Source: Nitrospira sp. (GTDB taxonomy: Bacteria > Nitrospirota > Nitrospiria > Nitrospirales > Nitrospiraceae). From it: a stretch of 51,524 nucleotides of DNA. Below are positions 1,209-51,524 of this stretch, piece after piece. The translations under genes were made by a program, and so were the position numbers. The stretch covers positions 1-51,524 of the forward strand of contig JACOEH010000037.1 in assembly GCA_024998685.1 (NCBI GenBank). The letters run 5' to 3'. Below the pieces are notes generated by a model. The model was given only the letters and a program-made list of their open reading frames with translations. It searched no databases and was not told the DNA's origin. The first letter of the stretch is position 1. The number at the start of each line of letters is the position of its first letter.

Positions 1209-2459
1209 TCAGGGATACAATCCACGCTGGAGATGTGCTTGAGCAACTTGATCAATTCCGTTCATGAGAGCTGCCATGCGCATCGACACGCGGCGCTCGG
1301 TCGAAAAATGAAGTGTTCGCCGAAAAGCGGACGTGATGATGTCTTGCAGTCGATTCCGGATGTCTGAGGCGCTCCAGAAAAATCGCTGCAGGTCCTGCAC
1401 CCATTCAAAGTAAGAGACAATGACGCCGCCGGAGTTAGCGAGAATATCGGGGATGACGAAGATGTCTTTATCTGCAAGGATGCAGTCGGCCTCCAAAGTC
1501 GTCGGACCGTTCGCTCCTTCAGATAGAATTCGGCACCTCAAAGAATTCGCATTTTTGCTTGTGATCTGTTCCGAAAGGGCGGCGGGTACGAGAACGGTAC
1601 ACTCTAATCGCAGGAGTTCCTCGTTTGTGATCGCATCCCCGAGCTTGGTGTCATGCAACGGTTGGCTAGGATCGCGACGAAGCAACTCCATGACATTCAA
1701 CCCCTTGGAGTTATAAATTCCACCGTGTACATCGCTGACGGCAATGACGCGTGCACCTTGTTGCTGCATGATGCGGGCGGTGTGTGAACCGACATTTCCG
1801 AATCCTTGAATCGCCACCGTGGCATTTTCAATCGGCAACTTGAGGTGACGGAGCACCTCTTGGGTCACATAGACGACTCCACGCCCCGTCGCTTCTTCAC
1901 GGCCCAAGCTGCCTCCGATCGAGAGCGGTTTACCGGTCACCACGCCAGGAACGGCGTACCCGACTTGCTGGCTGTAAGTATCCATCATCCATGCCATGAC
2001 CTGAGCGTCGGTCCCCACATCTGGGGCCGGTACATCCTTGTCGGGACCGATCAGGGGAAAAATCTCTGCGGCATATCGCCGTGTCAGCCGCTGTAACTCG
2101 GCGGGAGACAATTGCTTTGGCACAACGGCGACTCCACCTTTCGCTCCGCCGTACGGTAAGCCGGCCAATGCGCATTTCCATGTCATCCACATTGCAAGAG
2201 CGGCCACCTCACCGAGATTCACGTCGGGATGGTAACGCACGCCCCCCTTGGACGGACCACGTGATGAATCATGTTGTACGCGGTAGCCCGTAAAAACCTC
2301 CACGTGTCCGTCGTCCATCCGAACTGGAAGGCTGACGACGAGAGAACGCTGTGGAAGTTTCAGACGTTCGCGGAGATTTGGATCAAGTCCCATCGCTTCT
2401 GCGGCCTGATCGAACTGCGCGATGGCCAGGCGAAACGTCGGTGTATCAAGTTCCTGCAT
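1209..2459 (-). CDS. gdhA: Glu/Leu/Phe/Val dehydrogenase (glutamate dehydrogenase)
   Basis: 416 aa, the usual length for the hexameric Glu/Leu/Phe/Val dehydrogenase family, which catalyses reversible NAD(P)-linked oxidative deamination, for glutamate to 2-oxoglutarate and ammonia. Seen: substrate-binding segment SRGPSKGGVRYHP (residues 66-78), the catalytic-lysine motif LPYGGAKGG (about 101-109), PAPDVGTD near 145-151, and a Rossmann motif GFGNVG at 219-224. The C-terminal NSGGVIVSYFEW motif is intact. Cytoplasmic. It links nitrogen assimilation to the TCA cycle. Coenzyme preference and a leucine or phenylalanine substrate cannot be settled by eye, but glutamate is most likely. lipB lies 45 nt upstream on the same strand. 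Confidence 0.9.
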   Translation of the reverse strand: MQELDTPTFRLAIAQFDQAAEAMGLDPNLRERLKLPQRSLVVSLPVRMDDGHVEVFTGYRVQHDSSRGPSKGGVRYHPDVNLGEVAALAMWMTWKCALAGLPYGGAKGGVAVVPKQLSPAELQRLTRRYAAEIFPLIGPDKDVPAPDVGTDAQVMAWMMDTYSQQVGYAVPGVVTGKPLSIGGSLGREEATGRGVVYVTQEVLRHLKLPIENATVAIQGFGNVGSHTARIMQQQGARVIAVSDVHGGIYNSKGLNVMELLRRDPSQPLHDTKLGDAITNEELLRLECTVLVPAALSEQITSKNANSLRCRILSEGANGPTTLEADCILADKDIFVIPDILANSGGVIVSYFEWVQDLQRFFWSASDIRNRLQDIITSAFRRTLHFSTERRVSMRMAALMNGIDQVAQAHLQRGLYP

Positions 2460-2504
2460 AGGACTTCTCTACGGCAACACCAGTCAGTTTTGTACGTCGG
2501 CGTG

Positions 2505-3254
2505 TCATGCGACAACAGTCGACCAGTTGAAGGCAAACACCGCCGCAAAGGTCTGAGCGAGTTCCTGCTTGACGATGTCAACTGGGACAGCTGCTTGACG
2601 TATGGCAGACATGGAGGTCACCCGGCAATCAGGAAATCCGCAGGGATGGATCCGCTGGAACGGCGTCAGATCCAAATCAACATTCAGAGCGAACCCATGC
2701 AATGTCACGCCGTGCTCAATTCGTATGCCCAAAAATGCGATTTTCTGTGGCTCAGGAGTCATGATCCACACACCTGGTTTGCCAACGACACGAGAGCCGG
2801 TAATGTTCCAGCGTTCGAGTACCTGAATAATCACTTCTTCTAGCAACCAGACCAATTGCCTGGGCCCCGCCGCATGCCGATCAAGCGTGAGCACCGGGTA
2901 GACGACAATCTGTCCGGGGCCGTGAAACGTCACAGATCCTCCACGATTGACGTGGTGCAGTTCCACCCCATCAGTGCATAACGCTGATTCACTGCCTCCC
3001 CAATGCGACGGTCTGGTCCTACGTCCGAGCGTATAGACCGGAGAATGTTCAAGAATCAGAACAGTATCCGGTTGGAGACCGAGGAGACGTTCCTCATGCA
3101 AGCGAGACTGTATTTCCCACGCGATAAGATAGGGAACCGGTTCTGGAAAGATACGAACCGCGCCCATATGAATGTAAGGAGACCTCAAATGCGGAAATAT
3201 CACGGTGTTCGCGTCGATCATGATGATTACACGATCAAGGGGGACCGATACCAT
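2505..3254 (-). CDS. lipB: Octanoyl-[acyl-carrier-protein] transferase LipB
   Basis: LipB moves octanoyl groups from acyl-carrier protein to apo-domains of lipoate-dependent enzymes, the first step of endogenous lipoylation in the cytoplasm. Seen: the family signature RGGSVTFHGPGQIVVYP, the lysine motif KIAFLGIR and the catalytic-cysteine region HPCGFPDCRVTSM. The core domain starts around MGAVRIFPEP (ATG at 3167); the 3254 and 3221 starts add an N-terminal extension and neither has a convincing ribosome-binding site, so the true start is uncertain. It shares strand and spacing with gdhA downstream. lipA is not in the window. Confidence 0.9.
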   Translation of the reverse strand: MVSVPLDRVIIMIDANTVIFPHLRSPYIHMGAVRIFPEPVPYLIAWEIQSRLHEERLLGLQPDTVLILEHSPVYTLGRRTRPSHWGGSESALCTDGVELHHVNRGGSVTFHGPGQIVVYPVLTLDRHAAGPRQLVWLLEEVIIQVLERWNITGSRVVGKPGVWIMTPEPQKIAFLGIRIEHGVTLHGFALNVDLDLTPFQRIHPCGFPDCRVTSMSAIRQAAVPVDIVKQELAQTFAAVFAFNWSTVVA

Positions 3255-3372
3255 CTATGAGGATGGTAAAACATCCACCCGAAGTCAGCACCAAGGATTA
3301 CGGTTGTGAAGAGAAAGAACGGGTTCAGCATGGTTGGAATATTGTTGCATAACTCACTATGTAGAGGGAAGT

Positions 3373-3408
3373 CGGGTTGCGAAGTGCCGAGACTGCCCTC
3401 GCAACCCG
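3373..3408. repeat. 10-bp inverted repeat downstream of the sigma factor gene
   Basis: CGGGTTGCGA at 3373-3382 is perfectly complementary to TCGCAACCCG at 3399-3408, leaving a 16-nt loop. It lies just past the stop codon of the sigma factor gene, where a transcript end would be expected. No U-run follows on either strand, so a classical intrinsic terminator is not supported; a 3'-end stabilising hairpin is possible. Confidence 0.45.
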
Positions 3409-3421
3409 TGAATCGAAGAGG

Positions 3422-4678
3422 CTACTTGATGGCTGCGAAGAGCTCCTTGATCTGAGGGGTCTTCAGTTTCTTAAGTGCTTTCGCCTCAATTTGGCGGATA
3501 CGCTCTCGCGTCACGGACAAGCTTTGGCCGACTTGCTCCAAGGTGCTGGCTTCATCGTAGCCGATCCCGAAGCGGAGCCTGATGACGGTTTGCTCGCGAG
3601 GTGTGAGGATGCTTAAGATACGGTCCAGTTGTTCCGTCAGTTCACTTCGGTGGACATGAGCGTCGGGCGGAACTGCCTGCTGGTCCGGAATCATATCCCC
3701 GAACTGTGTATCTCCATCACCGATCGGAGTTTCCAGAGCCACTGGCTCCTGAAAGGCCAGCACAGTCTCGCGGAGCCGCTCAGGTCTCATATGCAGCACA
3801 TGGGCAATCTCTTCCAAGCGGGCGGGACGCCCAAACTGTTGTCCAAGTCTCCGCATTACACGCAGGATTCGATGCGAGGCTTCGGTTTGGTGGACCGGTA
3901 TGCGGATCGTTCTTGATTGATCCGCAAGCGCCCGAGTGATGCCCTGCCGAATCCACCACGTTGCATAGGTGCTGAATTTGAATCCCTTTCGATACTGATA
4001 TCGCTCGGCCGCTTTCATCAGACCGATGTTGCCTTCTTGTACGAGATCAAGCAAGCCCAATCCTCGCCCCGTGTAATGTTTGGCAACATCCACAACCAAA
4101 CGAAGATTACACCGTACGAGCTCATCTTTGCCTTGCTCCAGGATCACCCTGGCGGAATGAATTTCATCGAGTAACGCTTTCAGTGCCTTTGCTGTAGCTG
4201 GAGTAAGTTTTAAGTCTGGGTCCGACGGATTAAGGGCGGTGTTTAAGGCCTTTTCGGCATTGTCCAACGCCGTAGCCGAAAGCCCGCTCAACCGTCTGAC
4301 CATCTGGAGTACTTTAATGCTGTCGGCAAGAACGGGTGACCGTTTGGATTTGAACAAGGCTCTTATGGCCTGGCGCAGAGCGACACGAATGCGCCGTGTC
4401 CCATGGTCCACCCGCTTGGCGATCGCGGTTTCTTCTTCTCGAGTCAAAAGCCCCCGATCGCCGAACGATCGGAAGTATAAGGCTTCCAAGAGAAACGGGC
4501 TGGCGCCGCGGCTTGTACGCATGACCGGCTGGGTCTTCTCATCCGATCCGGACTCCTCAGCCTCACGGCTGATCATTCCCAGCATGCCGCTAGCCTTGGC
4601 GTCATCGGCATCGACGTCTGGAACGAATGTTTTCTGTATCTCCATCTCGTCAGAGACTCGCAGTCCTTCTTTCATCAT
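3422..4678 (-). CDS. RNA polymerase sigma factor, sigma-70 family (RpoD/RpoS-like)
   Basis: 418 aa. Region 1.2/2 begins at LTREEETAIAKRV; region 2 holds the hallmark DLVQEGNIGLMKAAERYQYRKG followed by FSTYATWWIRQGITRAL (-10 recognition and melting). Region 3 covers RIPVHQTE to LEEIAHVL, and region 4 holds LTPREQTVIRLRFG and the helix-turn-helix TLEQVGQSLSVTRERIRQIE. The acidic N-terminus is short and lacks the long region 1.1 and the large non-conserved insert of housekeeping RpoD, so a group 2 factor (stationary-phase or stress type) is more likely than the primary one. The start is the MM pair at 4678. It is monocistronic, with about 165 nt before lipB. Confidence 0.88.
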   Translation of the reverse strand: MMKEGLRVSDEMEIQKTFVPDVDADDAKASGMLGMISREAEESGSDEKTQPVMRTSRGASPFLLEALYFRSFGDRGLLTREEETAIAKRVDHGTRRIRVALRQAIRALFKSKRSPVLADSIKVLQMVRRLSGLSATALDNAEKALNTALNPSDPDLKLTPATAKALKALLDEIHSARVILEQGKDELVRCNLRLVVDVAKHYTGRGLGLLDLVQEGNIGLMKAAERYQYRKGFKFSTYATWWIRQGITRALADQSRTIRIPVHQTEASHRILRVMRRLGQQFGRPARLEEIAHVLHMRPERLRETVLAFQEPVALETPIGDGDTQFGDMIPDQQAVPPDAHVHRSELTEQLDRILSILTPREQTVIRLRFGIGYDEASTLEQVGQSLSVTRERIRQIEAKALKKLKTPQIKELFAAIK

Positions 4679-45566: not shown

Positions 45567-47186
45567 TCACCCGGCTGAAGTTCTTGGTTCAGGTGTCTGC
45601 GAAGGAGATGGAACCGGCCGGCGCGAGCGAAGGATTTCTTCGAGTGAGAGGAGCGCGTCCCGTCCCGAATTGCCCTCAATGCCTCGGCTGAGGTTCTGGT
45701 CGGCATAGGTAGGTGACTCTGAAGTTTGGGACAGAGATCCGGTCCATCGACGAGGATCACGGCTCCCTTGCTTCCGTTCCCAAGCCCTGAGACAGGCCTT
45801 GGCGATGAACTTGTTGAGGGGAGCAGGGTTATAGAGCAATTTTCTGATACTCGTCGGCGTCAGCATCAAGGGATTGTAGCCGGCGGAGAGGTAGCCCTCC
45901 TCCAACAGTCGCTGCTCCAGATCGGTGTTCGGCTGGATGCCGAGGAAGAACATCAACGGGAACACACGCTCTTCTCCGATTATTGAGGCCACCTTCTTGT
46001 AGGACTCGACGCTCTGCAGGAGACTCTCTTCCGTTTCTTTGGGACTGTTCAGCGAGTAGTTCAGGATTACCTTGCCCTTGAAGCCGGCTTCCGCCAGATA
46101 ACGACAACCGTCATACAACCGTTCCAGCTTGAATCCCATATGGAGATTATTCAGAACTTCTTGCGAACCGGATGTAATGGCCACCTCCAGATCGCCCACG
46201 CCTGATCGGACCATCAGTTTCGCGAGTTCCGGGGTAATCAGCGAGGTTCTGATGTAGCCGGACCACTCGATATCGAGTTTCTCGGCCACGATCCGCTCAA
46301 GGATCTCCGTGCACTGAGGATAGGCCTCTTTCCCAGTGATGAATTGGGCGTCGGTAAACCAGAATCGACGGGCACCCCACTGATGATAGTGCTGAGCGAT
46401 ATCTTTGACGACCATGTCGGGCGGCCGATAGCGGACTCGTTTGCCTTCGATGTAGGGATAGAGGCAGAAGGCGCAATCGTATGGGCAGCCCCGTTTCGAC
46501 TGCACCCCGATTGACTCACCGATATACTCACCGTACTGGGGAAAGATCGACGTGAGATAGGGCAAATCGACTGTCAGCGCGTCGAGCAGCGCCGGCGAAC
46601 CCTGTCGGCCTTTCCGAACCTGAGTCCCTTCTTTGACGATGTACCGTTCATCCTCAATGGACCGGCCTTCAATGACCTTCAATATGGCGTCTTCCCCTTC
46701 ACCGAGGATGCCGATGGTTCCTTCCGGGAGCCTTTCGATCAATTGATCGGCGAAGGCCGTAAAAGCCCCCCCTCCGATCATGATCTGGGCTTTGGGGAAC
46801 TCTTTGCGGATCAACGCAGGGTACGACAGGATCGTATAGATGTGGTTGTAGTAGCGATAGAGCTGCTTGACACCCTCGACTGACGCCGCGATGCGCTTGA
46901 GCGGGTTACTGGCAAAGTAAAAATTGAAGGCATGCTCCAACGAGGTGTCGCCTTCATGGGGTGAAAAGATTTGAATATCGCGCCAAGAAAAGCAGACCAA
47001 GTCCGGCTTGAACTCCGTGGCCGCATCCCGGATGGCTTGGCTTCGCTGTGCGACAGGAAACAGAGACAGATCGAGAATGCGCTGGCGAACCTCCGGCTTT
47101 CGCCGATAGATAAAGTCCGCCAAGTAGGTGATCCCGACGGGATAGACCTTTTTGCAGGGGAGAAAAATATAGAGAATGGAATTCAT
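45567..47186 (-). CDS. B12-binding domain radical SAM protein
   Basis: 539 aa from ATG 47186 (MNSILYIFLPCKKVYPVGIT). The N-terminal cobalamin-type Rossmann domain reads PDLVCFSWRDIQIFS, MIGGGAFTAFADQLIERLP, GILGEGEDAI. The radical SAM cluster is CX3CX2C in RGCPYDCAFCLYPY, followed by FTDAQFITGKEAYP, and EVAITSGSQEVLNNLHMG. Such proteins methylate or rearrange unactivated carbons, often in lipids, hopanoids or natural products. The Pro-rich C-terminus (RSRRPVPSPSQTPEP) is probably disordered. It starts 17 nt after ubiE, suggesting a lipid or quinone substrate. Confidence 0.8.
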   Translation of the reverse strand: MNSILYIFLPCKKVYPVGITYLADFIYRRKPEVRQRILDLSLFPVAQRSQAIRDAATEFKPDLVCFSWRDIQIFSPHEGDTSLEHAFNFYFASNPLKRIAASVEGVKQLYRYYNHIYTILSYPALIRKEFPKAQIMIGGGAFTAFADQLIERLPEGTIGILGEGEDAILKVIEGRSIEDERYIVKEGTQVRKGRQGSPALLDALTVDLPYLTSIFPQYGEYIGESIGVQSKRGCPYDCAFCLYPYIEGKRVRYRPPDMVVKDIAQHYHQWGARRFWFTDAQFITGKEAYPQCTEILERIVAEKLDIEWSGYIRTSLITPELAKLMVRSGVGDLEVAITSGSQEVLNNLHMGFKLERLYDGCRYLAEAGFKGKVILNYSLNSPKETEESLLQSVESYKKVASIIGEERVFPLMFFLGIQPNTDLEQRLLEEGYLSAGYNPLMLTPTSIRKLLYNPAPLNKFIAKACLRAWERKQGSRDPRRWTGSLSQTSESPTYADQNLSRGIEGNSGRDALLSLEEILRSRRPVPSPSQTPEPRTSAG

Positions 47187-47202
47187 TAGTGCTGAGTCGT
47201 CA

Positions 47203-47979
47203 CTATTTCGTCGCGACATGAATGGCGACAATGCCGCCGCTGAGGTTCTTGTACGATACCTGACGAAACCCGGCTTCTCGTAGGATCTGACACAACCGTT
47301 CTTGATCGGGGAATGTCCGGATCGATGCCGGAAGATACTCGTAGACGCCAGTGCGATCACGGGCGACGACAGTGCCGATCCAGGGCAGCAGTTTGAACGA
47401 ATACCAATCGTAGCCCTTCCGTAGCCAACCGAATACCGGCCGTGAAAACTCCAGGCACACGAAGCGGCCGCCGGGCTTCATCACGCGGCGGATCTCCCGC
47501 ACCGCTTGTGGTAAGTCACCCACATTCCGCATGCAGAAACCGGTGGTGACCGCATCGAAGGTATTGTCTCCAAATCCCAGATGTTCCGCGCTTGCCTGGA
47601 GGCATGTGATCTTGTCGGTGAGGCCCTTACCTCCGATCTTCTTGAAGCCTTCGGCCAGCATCGCGTGGTTCAGGTCTGATGCGATCACGCGCCCCTTGGG
47701 TCCCATCCGAGACTCGACAAGGAGCGCGAGGTCGGCTGTGCCGGATCCGACATCGAGGGCCGTGCCCCGTCCGACAGGCGTAATGAAGGAAGCGGTAATC
47801 TTTTTCCAATGGTAGTGCAGACCGAAACTCAACAGCGTGTTGTTCAGGTCATAGACGCCTGCAATGGATGTGAACATCCGTTGCACGGCATCTTCGCGGG
47901 CCTGGCCGGACCAGGTCGAGACGATTTTAGCCGGGCTTTTGGAATCTTGTGTCAATGGACGATGCTCGGTTCCCACCAT
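47203..47979 (-). CDS. ubiE: Demethylmenaquinone methyltransferase UbiE/MenG
   Basis: 258 aa. SAM-dependent C-methylation of demethylmenaquinone. Seen: VQRMFTSIAGVYDLNNTLLS (the family N-terminus), SAM motif ALDVGSGTADLALLV, SDLNHAML, DAVTTGFCMRNVGDLPQAVR, the C-terminal EFSRPVFGWLRKGYDWYSFK and GGIVAIHVATK. Normal length. First gene of the minus-strand run that continues into the B12 radical SAM gene. Confidence 0.92.
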   Translation of the reverse strand: MVGTEHRPLTQDSKSPAKIVSTWSGQAREDAVQRMFTSIAGVYDLNNTLLSFGLHYHWKKITASFITPVGRGTALDVGSGTADLALLVESRMGPKGRVIASDLNHAMLAEGFKKIGGKGLTDKITCLQASAEHLGFGDNTFDAVTTGFCMRNVGDLPQAVREIRRVMKPGGRFVCLEFSRPVFGWLRKGYDWYSFKLLPWIGTVVARDRTGVYEYLPASIRTFPDQERLCQILREAGFRQVSYKNLSGGIVAIHVATK

Positions 47980-48101
47980 GCGACCGTGGTAGCACCCGGT
48001 TCAAGGCGGTGTCAAGCGGGTCCTCGCTCTACTGGTAGCGCAAGGACGCCAGGTATTCTCGTTGCCCAAGTTGGGTGAATTCGTTAGACTTCGCCGCCGG
48101 T

Positions 48102-51101
48102 ATGACCAAACTCACTCTTAGCCAGCTGTCGAGCCTCCTGTTCCGCGCGTGCGATGACCTGCGTGGGAACATGGATGCGTCCGAGTACAAGGAATACATC
48201 TTCGGCATGCTCTTTCTAAAACGGATGAGCGATCTGTTCGATCAGGAGCGCGAGCAGCTGGCCAAGAGCCTCCAGTCGCGAGGGATGTCTGAGAAGCAAA
48301 TTGCCGTACAACTCATCAACCCGGACAAATACACCTTCTTTGTTCCGGAGATCGCTCATTGGTCGAAGATTCGCCACCTCAAGACCAATGTCGGCACAGG
48401 ACTGAATAAGGCGCTTGAGGCTCTGGAAGACGCCAATATCGAACCGCTTCAAGACGTGCTCAAACACATCAATTTCAACCGCAAGATCGGGCAGCGGACG
48501 TTGGATGACGACACGCTCGCCAATTTCGTCCAGAACTTCGAGAAGATTCCGCTGCGCGATGAGAACTTCGAGTTTCCCGACCTGCTCGGCGCGGCGTATG
48601 AGTATCTGATCAAGTTTTTCGCCGACTCGGCGGGAAAGAAAGCGGGCGAGTTCTATACGCCTGCTGATGTCGTCCGCACTCTTGTCGAGATCGTTGATCC
48701 CAAGCCGGGCATGAGCGTGTACGACCCGACCTGCGGCTCCGGCGGGATGCTCATTCAAACGCGTGACTACGTCCGGGAGTGTGGCGGAGATCCGAGGGAT
48801 CTCTCGCTCTTCGGGCAGGAAAGCATCGGGACCACCTGGTCCATCTGTAAGATGAACATGCTCCTGCACGGCATCTCGCACGCCGATATCCGTCAAGAAG
48901 ACACGATCCGCCGTCCCCAACACAAGGCCGAGAATAACGAACTGAAGCGGTATGACCGCGTGCTCGCCAATCCGCCCTTCAGCCAGAACTACATCAAGAA
49001 GGACATCGAGTACCCTGGCCGCTTTGCCGTGTGGCTCCCGGAGAAGGGCAAGAAGGCCGATCTTATGTTCGTCCAGCACATGCTGGCCGTGCTCAAGGCG
49101 GACGGGAAGATGGCGACGATTATGCCGCATGGCGTGCTGTTCCGCGGTGGGGAAGAGAAGGAAGCACGCAAACATTTCATCGAGCGCGGCTGGCTTGAAG
49201 CCGTCATCGGTCTACCGGCTGGACTCTTCTACGGCACAGGCATTCCCGCCTGCGTGCTGGTGATGAACAAGCAAGGTGCGGCTGAGCGCAAGCAGGTCTT
49301 CTTCATCAATGCGGATCGGGAATATCGCGAGGGCAAGGCGCAGAACTTTCTCCGTCCCGAAGACATCTCGAAGATCGTTCATGTGTATCGTGAGCGGAAA
49401 GACGTCGAGGGCTACGCCAGGCTGGTATCAGTCAAAGAAATCGAAACCGAGGACTTCAACTGCAACATCCGCCGCTATGTGGATAACGCGCCACCGTCGG
49501 AACCGCACGACGTGCGTGCACACCTGCACGGCGGCGTGCCGGTCGTGGAGATCGATGCGCTCGACCGGTTCTGGAAGAACTATTCGGGGCTGCGCGAGCG
49601 GGTCTTCGTTCCTCGCCCAAGTAGCTCCCTCTCCCCTTGGGAGAGGGATGGGGTGAGGGCAGAAGACCCAGCATCCAGCAAGCATCCTAAAACATTGATG
49701 CCTCCTGAACTCTTACGGTTGGCTCGCAACCTCCGTCACAACGGCACGAATGCCGAGCAGCTCATCTGGCAATGCTTGCGTGATCGACAGATCGCCGGAG
49801 CCAAATTCCGCCGCCAGCATCCCCTCGATCCGTACGTGCTGGATTTCTATTGTCATGAATTGAAGCTTGCCGTTGAACTGGACGGCGGCCGGCATAACGA
49901 GCCTACGGGATGTGCGCATGATGCGCGAAGGGACGAGTTTCTCGCCGCGCAAGGAATTCGGACGCTTCGGTTCTGGAACAACCAAGTGCTGGCTGAAACC
50001 GAGGCCGTCTTGGAAGCGGTGTATCAGGCGGTGACAGAGATGCAGACAGAAAAGCCCTCACCCTCCCCTCTCCCGGCGGGAGAGGGTGGGGCTGGCAGTG
50101 GCCCTCTCCCTTTGGGAGAGGGAAAGGGTGAGGGGCGCTATGCCGATTTCGCCTCCGCCGTCACTGATCGACGTGCGATTGCGCAGTTGGTCAAGACCGA
50201 TCCCGGTGTTGCCAAGGCACATGCCCGCTTCCTGGATCAATTGGAGTTGTGGTGGAAGGAGTATTTGCCGTCCATCGAAGCGCTGGCGCCGATAAACGGC
50301 CAGAAAGGCAATGTCTATGAACTCCGCCGCCAACTATTGGTCAGCATCGCGCAGTGTTTCCCCTCTCCCGTTGGGAGAGGGCAGGGTGAGGATTCTCTTT
50401 CTATTCTGAATGAGCACCAGATTCGTGGTGCGTTGGCCAGCTACTTCGAGTTCTTCAAGCCGGAGTTCAAATCCATTGCCTTCAGCGGCTGGGGACCGGA
50501 GTTGATTCCCGACGACGACATCCTCCAAAGCCAGTTCCCCGAGATTCTCGCCGAGATGGAGCAGAAGCGGATCAGGCTGGCCGAACTTGCCGCGCTCTTT
50601 GCCGCCGCCGATGAAGAGGATTACGAAGACGCAGACGATACCGGCCTATTGCCGGACGATGAAGTGAAGGTCCTCAAGGCGGAGATCAAGGAAGCCAGGG
50701 CGCAGGCGAAGCTTGCGAAAAAAGAAAAGCAGGATCATTCGATATTTCTGGTCCGTGCTGAAGTAGCCGAGAAACGGCTGGCGCGGCATAAGGCTCTGGA
50801 GGATGAAGGCAAGCAGTTGAAAGCCGATCTGCGCGCGACGGAAAAGAAGGAAGAAGAATTGGTGGCCGCTGCGCGCCAAAAGATCGATCGCAATGAAGCC
50901 CGCCGTGTGATCCTCGACCGCCTCCATCGCATCCTCGTCCAAACCTACGAAGGCTATCTCCGCGCCGATCAACGAGCCTGTACTGCCGCGCTGGAAAACT
51001 TGCATGCGAAATATGCCGTGACCGCCAAAGCTATTGAGGCAAAGCGCGATGTAGAGGCCGCGAAACTGAAAAAGTTTCTGATGGAGTTGGGGTATGAGTG
51101 A
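48102..51101 (+). CDS. hsdM: Type I restriction-modification DNA methyltransferase HsdM with inserted DUF559 cassette
   Basis: 999 aa from ATG 48102 (MTKLTLSQ). HsdM methylates adenine N6 with HsdS as specificity partner. Core: HsdM N-terminal helices ([20 protein letters not shown]), [20 protein letters not shown], motif [16 protein letters not shown], motif [10 protein letters not shown]. Residues about 505-680 are foreign: a translated REP ([16 protein letters not shown]), a DUF559/Vsr-like nuclease domain ([56 protein letters not shown]), and two more translated REPs ([24 protein letters not shown]). A fourth REP lies near residue 755. The HsdM C-terminal region then resumes ([20 protein letters not shown]) and ends in a coiled coil. 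Overlaps hsdS by 8 nt. Confidence 0.9.
49625..49660 (+). repeat. REP-like palindrome 1, in frame inside hsdM
   Basis: CTCCCTCTCCCC-TTGG-GAGAGGGATGGGG-type sequence followed by GTGAGGGC; CTCTCCC/GGGAGAG form the stem. It matches the widespread GC-rich CCCTCTCCC...GGGAGAGGG...GGGTGAGGG repeat. Translated here as [14 protein letters not shown], immediately before the DUF559 segment. Confidence 0.75.
50055..50135. repeat. REP-like palindromes 2 and 3, an inverted pair in frame inside hsdM
   Basis: Copy 2 begins CCCTCACCCTCCCCTCTCCC and closes with GGGAGAGGG (50055-50091); copy 3 is CCCTCTCCCTTTGGGAGAGGG followed by AAAGGGTGAGGGG (50102-50135). The CCCTCACCC at the start of copy 2 mirrors GGGTGAGGG at the end of copy 3, so the pair has the head-to-head layout of REP doublets. 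Translated as [10 protein letters not shown] and [12 protein letters not shown]. Confidence 0.75.
50360..50392 (+). repeat. REP-like palindrome 4, separate in-frame insertion in hsdM
   Basis: CCCCTCTCCCGTTGGGAGAG followed by GGCAGGGTGAGGA; same family and orientation as copies 1 and 3. It interrupts the HsdM C-terminal segment between LLVSIAQC and [12 protein letters not shown] and is read as [12 protein letters not shown] without shifting the frame. Confidence 0.75.
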
Positions 51102-51486
51102 ACCGCTATTGCATGGCTGCGAAGTGGGGACTCGTCCCTTGGGTTCGATGGTGTCGATAGATCCAGAGTCATTACCTCTCGGAACCAATCCCAGATTCGA
51201 ATTTCACTACATTGACATCTCGTGCGCAACGAATGGTCGACTTCAAGTGCCAAGCACGTCCACATCGTACGCACAAGCGCCAAGCCGAGCCCGCCGAATT
51301 ATTAAAAACGGCGACGTGTTGATGTCTACAGTTCGGCCAAATCTGAAAGCATTTGCATACTGCAATATGCCAAAAGGTAACTACGTGGCATCGACCGGTT
51401 TCGCCGTACTTCGAGCGATCGAAGGGAACGACCCTCAATACATCCTGTATTCCATTCTTAGCGACGATGTCGCTAGGGCCTGTTGA
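51094..51486 (+). pseudogene. hsdS: Type I restriction specificity subunit HsdS, 5' part only
   Basis: 130 codons. The first target-recognition domain starts with the usual pattern: FEFHYIDISCATNGRLQV, KNGDVLMSTVRPNLKAFAYC, YVASTGFAVLRAIEGNDPQY, ILYSILSDDVA. The reading stops with TGA at 51484, right where the sequence changes to what appears to be an IS end preceded by CTAG. A full HsdS is about 400 aa with two domains, so methylation and restriction by this locus are probably disabled unless the remainder lies beyond the element. Confidence 0.75.
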
Positions 51487-51524
51487 CAATTAGGGTTCAC
51501 AGAATCTCCATTTTCTGATTCACT
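51473..51524. mobile_element. Putative left end of an IS5/IS427-type insertion sequence (window edge)
   Basis: After CTAG (51473-51476) the sequence reads GGCCTGTTGACAATTAGGGT, a GG-initiated terminus of the kind seen in IS427-group IS5 elements, which favour CTAG targets. No transposase is visible because the window ends. Identification rests on the abrupt end of hsdS plus this short motif. Confidence 0.4.

Follow-up and report, generated by a model that had tools for sequence, protein, structure and literature searches.

Near the end of a 51,524-nucleotide stretch of Nitrospira sp. DNA (contig JACOEH010000037.1 of assembly GCA_024998685.1, analyzed at its full length and referred to here as the window) lies an hsdM gene, for the methylase subunit of a type I restriction-modification (R-M) system, whose open reading frame (ORF) contains, in frame, several repetitive extragenic palindromes (REPs) and a complete DUF559 nuclease domain. 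The features of this locus are as follows.

48105..51101, plus strand: hsdM carrying the insert in frame; 998 aa when read from the ATG at 48105; the open frame starts at 48075
48126..48539, plus strand: HsdM_N (PF12161), Pfam profile, residues 8-145
48579..49490, plus strand: N6_Mtase (PF02384), Pfam profile, residues 159-462
49627..49659, plus strand: REP1, translated, its tail (GGGTGAGGG) directed into the cassette
49716..50033, plus strand: DUF559 (PF04480) nuclease domain, residues 538-643, E 6e-35
50056..50086, minus strand: REP2, inverted with respect to REP1, tail into the cassette; palindrome copy at 50066-50098
50102..50134, plus strand: REP3, direct with respect to REP1 and 91% identical to it
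50139..51101, plus strand: C-terminal part of HsdM, where homology picks up again in frame
50361..50393, plus strand: REP4, a separate in-frame palindrome within the C-terminal part of hsdM
51094..51486, plus strand: probable start of hsdS, named from its position only, without a family match; it ends at the onset of the repeat at the contig end

The plus strand is open throughout from 48075 to 51101, with HsdM_N, N6_Mtase, DUF559 and the C-terminal part of HsdM read as one chain. This bears out the initial annotation, made from the sequence alone, which had described an in-frame, REP-flanked DUF559 segment inside hsdM: the 998-aa frame is open, the domain is complete, and REPs lie at 49627-49659 and 50056-50134. 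That annotation placed the break in HsdM homology at 49612/50138; in our alignment with HsdM relatives, the homology stops at ~49622 and restarts at ~50139. REP4 lies ~220 bases past REP3, in frame and outside the interval originally given; it is also present in a second hsdM (L120), and a third (L263) has a REP near the same place. The chain contains both profiles expected of a type I HsdM, HsdM_N and N6_Mtase, and as a whole scores 219.9 against the TIGR00497 cut-off of 242.75. Across the 4.83-Mb genome, the pattern CCCTCTCCC-N3-GGGAGAGGG, when at most two mismatches are allowed, occurs four times, always within hsdM and beyond chance expectation, and the reversed control pattern does not occur; the many dispersed copies typical of REPs and of their paired form, the REPIN, are therefore not seen in this genome, and its single DUF559 match is the one in hsdM. 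A genome of the same genus (G144; loci L120/L165) has an hsdM in which all four REPs and DUF559 are likewise present, on a contig that aligns to window positions 46501-47186 and 47198-51107 at ~78% DNA identity and thus covers the upstream genes as well. Since arrangement and upstream genes recur in this second genome, the insert is not the assembly chimera that the initial annotation had allowed for, and the shared locus indicates that the cassette is probably old here. Downstream of hsdM, G144 has HsdS-like and HsdR-like frames (by eye). DNA identity along hsdM revealed no clear tract of co-conversion around the insert.

The DUF559 domain of the window scores 119.8 bits against a curated cut-off of 20.6, and 3HRL is a solved relative (E 2.6e-20). 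Its conserved residues are encoded at 49842-49844 (D), 49875-49877 (E), 49881-49883 (D) and 49893-49895 (H); numbered from 49707 they are D46, E57, D59 and H63, and they are identical in 32 of 32 copies embedded in host ORFs. Membership in the PD-(D/E)XK family suggests that these residues are catalytic. The ratio of nonsynonymous to synonymous substitution (dN/dS, NG86) was 0.02 to 0.25, mostly near 0.1, in 14 of 17 pairs, among them the window and L165 (0.09); dS was saturated in three of the 17, and one pair (L255/L258) consists of tail copies. Judged from these alignments, purifying selection acts on the nuclease, whose conserved residues are retained. Leaving the window aside, 31 embedded copies were inspected: the interval from the REP (or from 30 residues upstream) to the domain contains no ATG in 27 of them and no ATG, GTG or TTG in 12, so that most embedded nucleases are probably made only within the host protein; the embedded copies also have no stop of their own. 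The window insert has an ATG at 49698.

The initial annotation had proposed aligning HsdM homologues with and without the insert, and this comparison yielded mostly empty linkers, some that hold only a REP, and few carriers. We collected 80 HsdM loci from genome contigs, of which 79 were compared, together with a class sample of 269 genomes. DUF559 occurs in 1 of the 79 loci (L040), with frame or contig stopping short of the linker in L067 and L070; the outcome that the annotation had named as fatal to its view, the same DUF559 segment without REPs in most HsdM orthologues, was not observed. In the class sample, nine genes, counting the window's, match the whole HsdM query at 88 to 100% identity, and three of them are carriers (the window, L120 and L123); a fifth HsdM carrier, L263, was reached through the DUF559 search and not the HsdM search. 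In most other relatives, the linker at the insert point is only a few residues long. Eight relatives carry a lone translated CCCTCTCCC-type REP or variant at that same point, four found by pattern (L117, L051, L056 and L095) and four by eye (L059, L065, L077 and L107). L117, the relative with the highest N-terminal identity to the window HsdM (94%), is one of these REP-only genes, and the translation of REP3 resembles its lone REP (GPLPQGEGKGEG). The same three states at one site (empty, REP only and REP-DUF559-REP) are also seen in MetRS and MnmG, so that in all three families carrier and empty alleles coexist as expected of a homing element; HsdM of the window's kind, MetRS and MnmG have one site each, in a linker.

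The unit is by no means confined to HsdM. The genome search that the initial annotation had suggested found it in frame in many unrelated ORFs and also between genes: inside HsdM (three sites), HsdS, AsnB, YgiQ, RecG, LipB, MetRS, MnmG, MmeI and type ISP enzymes. By Pfam, host families flank or are split by DUF559 in AsnB (two genes), YgiQ (one), RecG (one), LipB (one), MnmG (two) and MetRS (two), as well as in MmeI, type ISP, HsdS and HsdM, and NCBIfam agrees for one example each of MetRS, MnmG, AsnB, RecG, LipB and YgiQ. In the six MetRS carriers, the insert separates the anticodon part from the tRNA-binding domain; compared with solved chains, it interrupts adjacent or nearly adjacent positions, adding ~150 residues between 415 and 418 of 9wm0 in RecG and lying between 545 and 555 of 9hip in MnmG and between 138 and 143 of 1w66 in LipB. 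In HsdS, the same position following FDPVR is occupied by copies from two DUF559 groups (by eye), so that two DUF559 lineages with different flanking repeats share the site. Within the embedded set, the host family is found on one side only in L040/L210 (contig end), L240/L249 (contig start) and L275 and, by Pfam alone, in L149, L153 and L155; these one-sided rows are partial or were assigned from motifs recognized by eye. We did not count N-terminal or tail fusions, such as that with agmatine deiminase, as embedded, because their host homology is one-sided. DUF559 occurs in 104 of 269 genomes of the class and in 141 of 349 genomes of the order to which the L040 genome belongs; plasmid and phage records gave 31 matches in 72,556 and 2 in 50,697, respectively, all below 60% identity.

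We examined 147 different DUF559 loci, picked mainly for long open frames, for which reason their share of embedded copies is not a frequency. A REP lies within 130 bp on both sides in 63 of them, on one side in 27 and on neither side in 57. Where the REP pair could be oriented (n = 47), 42 pairs point inward, 3 outward and 2 in the same direction, a further 16 being uncallable; short palindromes thus form inverted pairs as in REPs and REPINs. The distance between REP and domain is variable (15 to 109 bases upstream and 3 to 129 downstream). The initial annotation had called free-standing REP-DUF559-REP units known: such units do exist, with 26 of the 147 loci having a frame shorter than 330 aa and REPs on both sides, but we found no description of them in openly licensed papers. 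Their flanking ORFs lie on the same strand in 21 of 26 cases, with neighbors such as V-type ATPase subunits and ABC transporter parts. The flanks of 10 of these 21 were scanned, and in 8 they belong to different families or to two recognizable subunits (V-type ATPase, L207); in L223 one flank has no match, and L028 has TonB receptors on both sides, judged to be two genes from the profile ranges. No gene split by a free-standing unit was found among these 10 scanned of the 26 candidates. A general inverted-repeat test of the flanks was also tried and dropped as evidence, since mismatched pairs passed it in 32%.

Host and nuclease trees disagree, as expected of homing elements. In the N-terminal HsdM tree (50 rows; L118, a copy of L036, was removed from the HsdM trees), the five carriers require five changes, two of them forced by supported branches, and a single carrier clade is rejected (approximately unbiased [AU] test, p 8e-52); the eight REP-only rows require seven changes. 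The C-terminal tree requires three changes for its four carriers. The N-terminal part of the window HsdM is nearer to noncarriers than to L120, and its C-terminal part is nearest to L120, a difference in affinity that makes recombination inside the gene likely. Close HsdM relatives are spread over several phyla. MetRS, by comparison, has one match in nearly every genome searched, and in its tree (33 rows) the six carriers require six changes, five of them forced by supported branches, with one clade rejected (AU p 3e-41); at the resolved forks (L266, L270 and L273), the nearest rows are empty or REP only. In the DUF559 tree (139 rows and 107 columns, many forks unresolved, without domains shorter than ~86 residues and without L278 and L284, which formed very long branches), the five HsdM copies form one clade (99*), as do the AsnB copies and the MnmG copies (both starred). 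The six MetRS nucleases placed as one clade are not rejected and fit better than the free tree (p 0.77), which is no proof of one clade. Being embedded changes 8 times on this tree against 29 in shuffles, and the HsdS copies need four changes, two of them forced.

We further counted REPs in 200 genomes of the order, where they reach 253 per genome, taking DUF559 matches with E up to 1e-20 as strong. At least 10 REPs occur in 18 of 59 genomes with strong DUF559 against 5 of 141 others (p 3e-7). Y1_Tnp, counted here as any match to the family and not as REP-associated tyrosine transposases (RAYTs) only, was considered alongside: at least 3 REPs are present in 24 of 49 Y1_Tnp genomes with strong DUF559 against 10 of 74 without it, and in 5 of 10 against 3 of 67 of the genomes in which no Y1 transposase was found (p 6e-4). 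Overall, Y1_Tnp genomes are richer in REPs (at least 3 in 34 of 123 against 8 of 77, p 0.004), but among DUF559 genomes Y1_Tnp has no effect (24 of 49 against 5 of 10, p 1). The genomes are related, each cassette adds two or three REPs of its own, and there are 13 exceptions, detailed below, so that the link between REP number and DUF559 is an association only.

Recurrent in-frame units in unrelated ORFs and between intact genes, empty alleles at the same sites, conflicting trees and a conserved nuclease are what we observe. From these we consider it reasonably probable that the insert in the window hsdM is a resident copy of a REP-bounded, homing-like endonuclease cassette, tolerated in linkers and translated within the host protein; that the nuclease drives its movement, that a REP serves as target and that the host protein still works is what we infer. 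Under this model, the mobile unit would comprise a DUF559 (Vsr-like, PD-(D/E)XK) frame between inverted CCCTCTCCC-type REPs with their tails inward. The nuclease would recognize and cut a site whose linker is empty or holds a lone REP, and repair from the carrier copy, by recombination after DNA transfer, would install the cassette there (homing). The host protein would stay functional, with the nuclease becoming a permanent internal domain. The initial annotation had suggested a mobile cassette that splices itself into host ORFs; a discrete, mobile, REP-bounded cassette agrees with the unrelated ORFs and with the nonclade HsdM and MetRS backgrounds, but self-splicing, if protein splicing was meant, finds no support in the nine inserts scanned, which have no intein or Hint match. 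Spread between alleles would be the short reading of the trees. An old insertion with repeated clean loss is formally still compatible with them, and counts against spread to that extent; such loss would need to recreate clean linkers over and over, an outcome not expected from recombination between inverted REPs.

Several further observations weigh against the cassette as we propose it. No REP of the kind described lies near DUF559 in the 57 loci mentioned above. The exact preinsertion site and a target-site duplication are not definable; none was seen by eye in the HsdM linker rows, which offer no recent event to judge by. Copies at the same site are 61 to 89% identical, so that no recent jump was caught and movement is read from trees only. 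A single origin of all 32 embedded copies was considered and rejected (AU p 7e-4 for one clade), two embedded copies that genome G270 carries do not pair as sisters in the row-by-row DUF559 tree, and the MetRS row L267 is a very long branch. At least 3 REPs are found in 13 of 141 genomes without strong DUF559 (some with weaker matches), one of which has 84. The AlphaFold2 model of the whole HsdM fusion had a mean predicted local distance difference test score of 65.8, mostly below 50 in the DUF559 region, with too shallow an alignment of the insert, and was set aside.

Among other explanations, the one that deserves most attention is tolerated hitchhiking, in which permissive linkers gather palindromic repeats with DUF559 along, recombination of horizontally moving genes spreads them and the nuclease drives nothing. 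Other repeat families do occur in HsdM and MnmG linkers (by eye), and both the spread of close HsdM relatives over several phyla and the recombinant-like window HsdM, with its C-terminal part nearest a carrier and its N-terminal part nearest noncarriers, would fit such a process. However, it accounts poorly for a nuclease kept under purifying selection with its conserved residues intact, for a REP number that tracks DUF559, and for six carriers dispersed over the tree of MetRS, a gene matched once in nearly every genome searched; we regard it as rather unlikely. A useful fusion, in which the nuclease was recruited as a cutting domain or as a Vsr-like repair function for the type I methylase or HsdS, draws on the fact that, in the Nitrospira class sample, 13 of 13 identified nonintein embedded copies lie in HsdM or HsdS (L149, L153 and L155 partly by eye), that the intein-borne copy L159 also resides in a DNA methylase, and that two further hosts, MmeI and type ISP, are likewise R-M enzymes. 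The DUF559 protein VsrA is moreover needed for the SOS response that Caulobacter shows when it lacks a cytosine methylase (PMC12907096). The term methylase-nuclease fusion, used in the initial annotation, is apt for the product of the window gene, but it leaves the presence of such units in MetRS, MnmG, AsnB, RecG and LipB unexplained; G144 already has an HsdR-like frame downstream (by eye), one HsdS site is shared by two DUF559 lineages, HsdM is entered at three sites and most HsdM relatives have no insert. We therefore consider recruitment for a host function improbable.

Movement of the REPs by a RAYT (TnpA-REP), with the REP pair and its DUF559 as passengers, has the advantage that RAYTs are published candidates for REP movement (PMC8266576) and that Y1_Tnp genomes are richer in REPs overall. 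Yet Y1_Tnp, in the broad sense counted here, makes no difference among DUF559 genomes, and DUF559 matters both with and without it, which leaves little probability for this explanation. Least probable is a decayed or undetected intein, that is, a segment removed by protein splicing. DUF559 has evidently served as an intein nuclease, since L159 (positions 1582-3921), from the same genus as the window, encodes a DNA methylase (N6_N4_Mtase) with an intein holding DUF559. Nine REP-flanked inserts (the window, MetRS L266, RecG L257, MnmG L271, AsnB L251, LipB L259, YgiQ L256, HsdS L148 and MmeI L280) gave no match to intein or Hint families of NCBIfam and Pfam up to E 1, but the L159 control was detected in the same scans (E 9e-4 and 0.07); Pfam alone at E 0.001 missed L159, and scans at that level are not counted against inteins. 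Intein junctions have Asn followed by Cys, Ser or Thr, and the end of the window segment offers no such junction.

We know of no mover of translated palindromic repeats outside the RAYT group, and homing endonucleases are usually regarded as dependent on an intron or intein for residence within essential genes. The cassette joins these two threads, palindromic repeats translated in proteins and homing endonucleases, which have been treated separately. More tentatively, and at somewhat less than even chances, it may be a mobile element of a new class, namely a REPIN with its own Vsr-like homing endonuclease, often startless and stopless and without a splicing domain, which inserts into linkers of essential proteins and is retained there as an internal domain that is expressed. 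Lone REPs at these sites would then be landing pads or nonautonomous remnants, and the REP family would be spread by its own nuclease and not by a RAYT. If so, there would be a testable candidate enzyme for moving in-frame REPs, and ORFs annotated as chimeric or as ordinary fusions would deserve a second look.

In-frame REPs as such are already published; for the cassette itself, a search of the openly licensed literature, judged by titles and abstract openings, found no description. Rickettsia palindromic elements (summary in PMC10969869) and intragenic GTAG/CGTC REPs (PMC3733652, where REP-bearing proteins include UvrA and tRNA synthetases) resemble our case in that palindromes stand in frame in unrelated genes, including those for tRNA synthetases and DNA repair, sometimes twice per gene and sometimes at approximately the same site in two species. 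They differ in that, in the available portions of both papers, the inserts are 20 to 82 residues of repeat peptide with no enzyme described therein; the main text of PMC3733652 does not contain "DUF" and has "endonuclease" once, about insertion sequences. REPINs share with the cassette two inverted REPs per unit, lone REPs elsewhere and a REP number tied to a partner enzyme gene, but here the enzyme is DUF559, located between the REPs, and not a Y1 transposase, and Y1_Tnp does not account for REP number among DUF559 genomes. Free-standing DUF559 proteins (PRK09767, 3HRL and, according to PMC12907096, Caulobacter VsrA) have the same domain and the same conserved residues, but with their own start and stop, whereas embedded copies are read within the host protein. 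Like inteins, of which L159 is an example, the cassette places a nuclease in frame within host genes, with host-site-specific lineages and empty alleles in relatives; unlike inteins, it has no detected splicing domain, sits in linkers or loops and is bounded by REPs. Inteins with a Vsr-like homing endonuclease have reportedly been the subject of a published study.

Repeats other than the CCCTCTCCC type also accompany DUF559. Some loci without REPs of this type carry other repeats on both sides, for example ITPPLRGSR in HsdS of G206 and G207 (by eye), and translated repeats of the ITPPLRGSR, SPTPLLTKEGK and PPFFKGG types flank DUF559 in L146 and L147 (HsdS), in L160, L162 and L164, and in L264, L265 and L277 (by eye). 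Other repeat families may therefore have DUF559 as a partner too, to judge by eye. L160, L162 and L164 are methylpurine glycosylases with DUF559 (by Pfam for L160 only). Other repeat-like inserts occupy the HsdM linker in L100, L110, L112, L076 and L087 (by eye); taken together with L058, L061, L062 and L320, the HsdM and MnmG linkers hold RHSGERRNPE, RPEPVEG, SPVGWVSPQGVTQ and others, and to the eye they look like hot spots for repeat inserts.

At the end of the window, a 31-base stretch within 51476-51524, at the contig end, occurs in four contigs of the genome, and the probable hsdS frame is broken at 51487; an insertion element may cut hsdS, or the contig may simply end in a repeat. In one family of the same order, DUF559 stands ahead of agmatine deiminase in one open frame (L007, L010, L011, L023, L024, L027, L154, L161, L163, L175, L176 and L178), in some with REPs; agmatine deiminase was assigned by Pfam in L154 and L166 only and by frame and motif in the rest. 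Finally, the AsnB genes of L251 (G300) and L254 (G375) each contain 13 in-frame REPs, in two arrays, in addition to DUF559.

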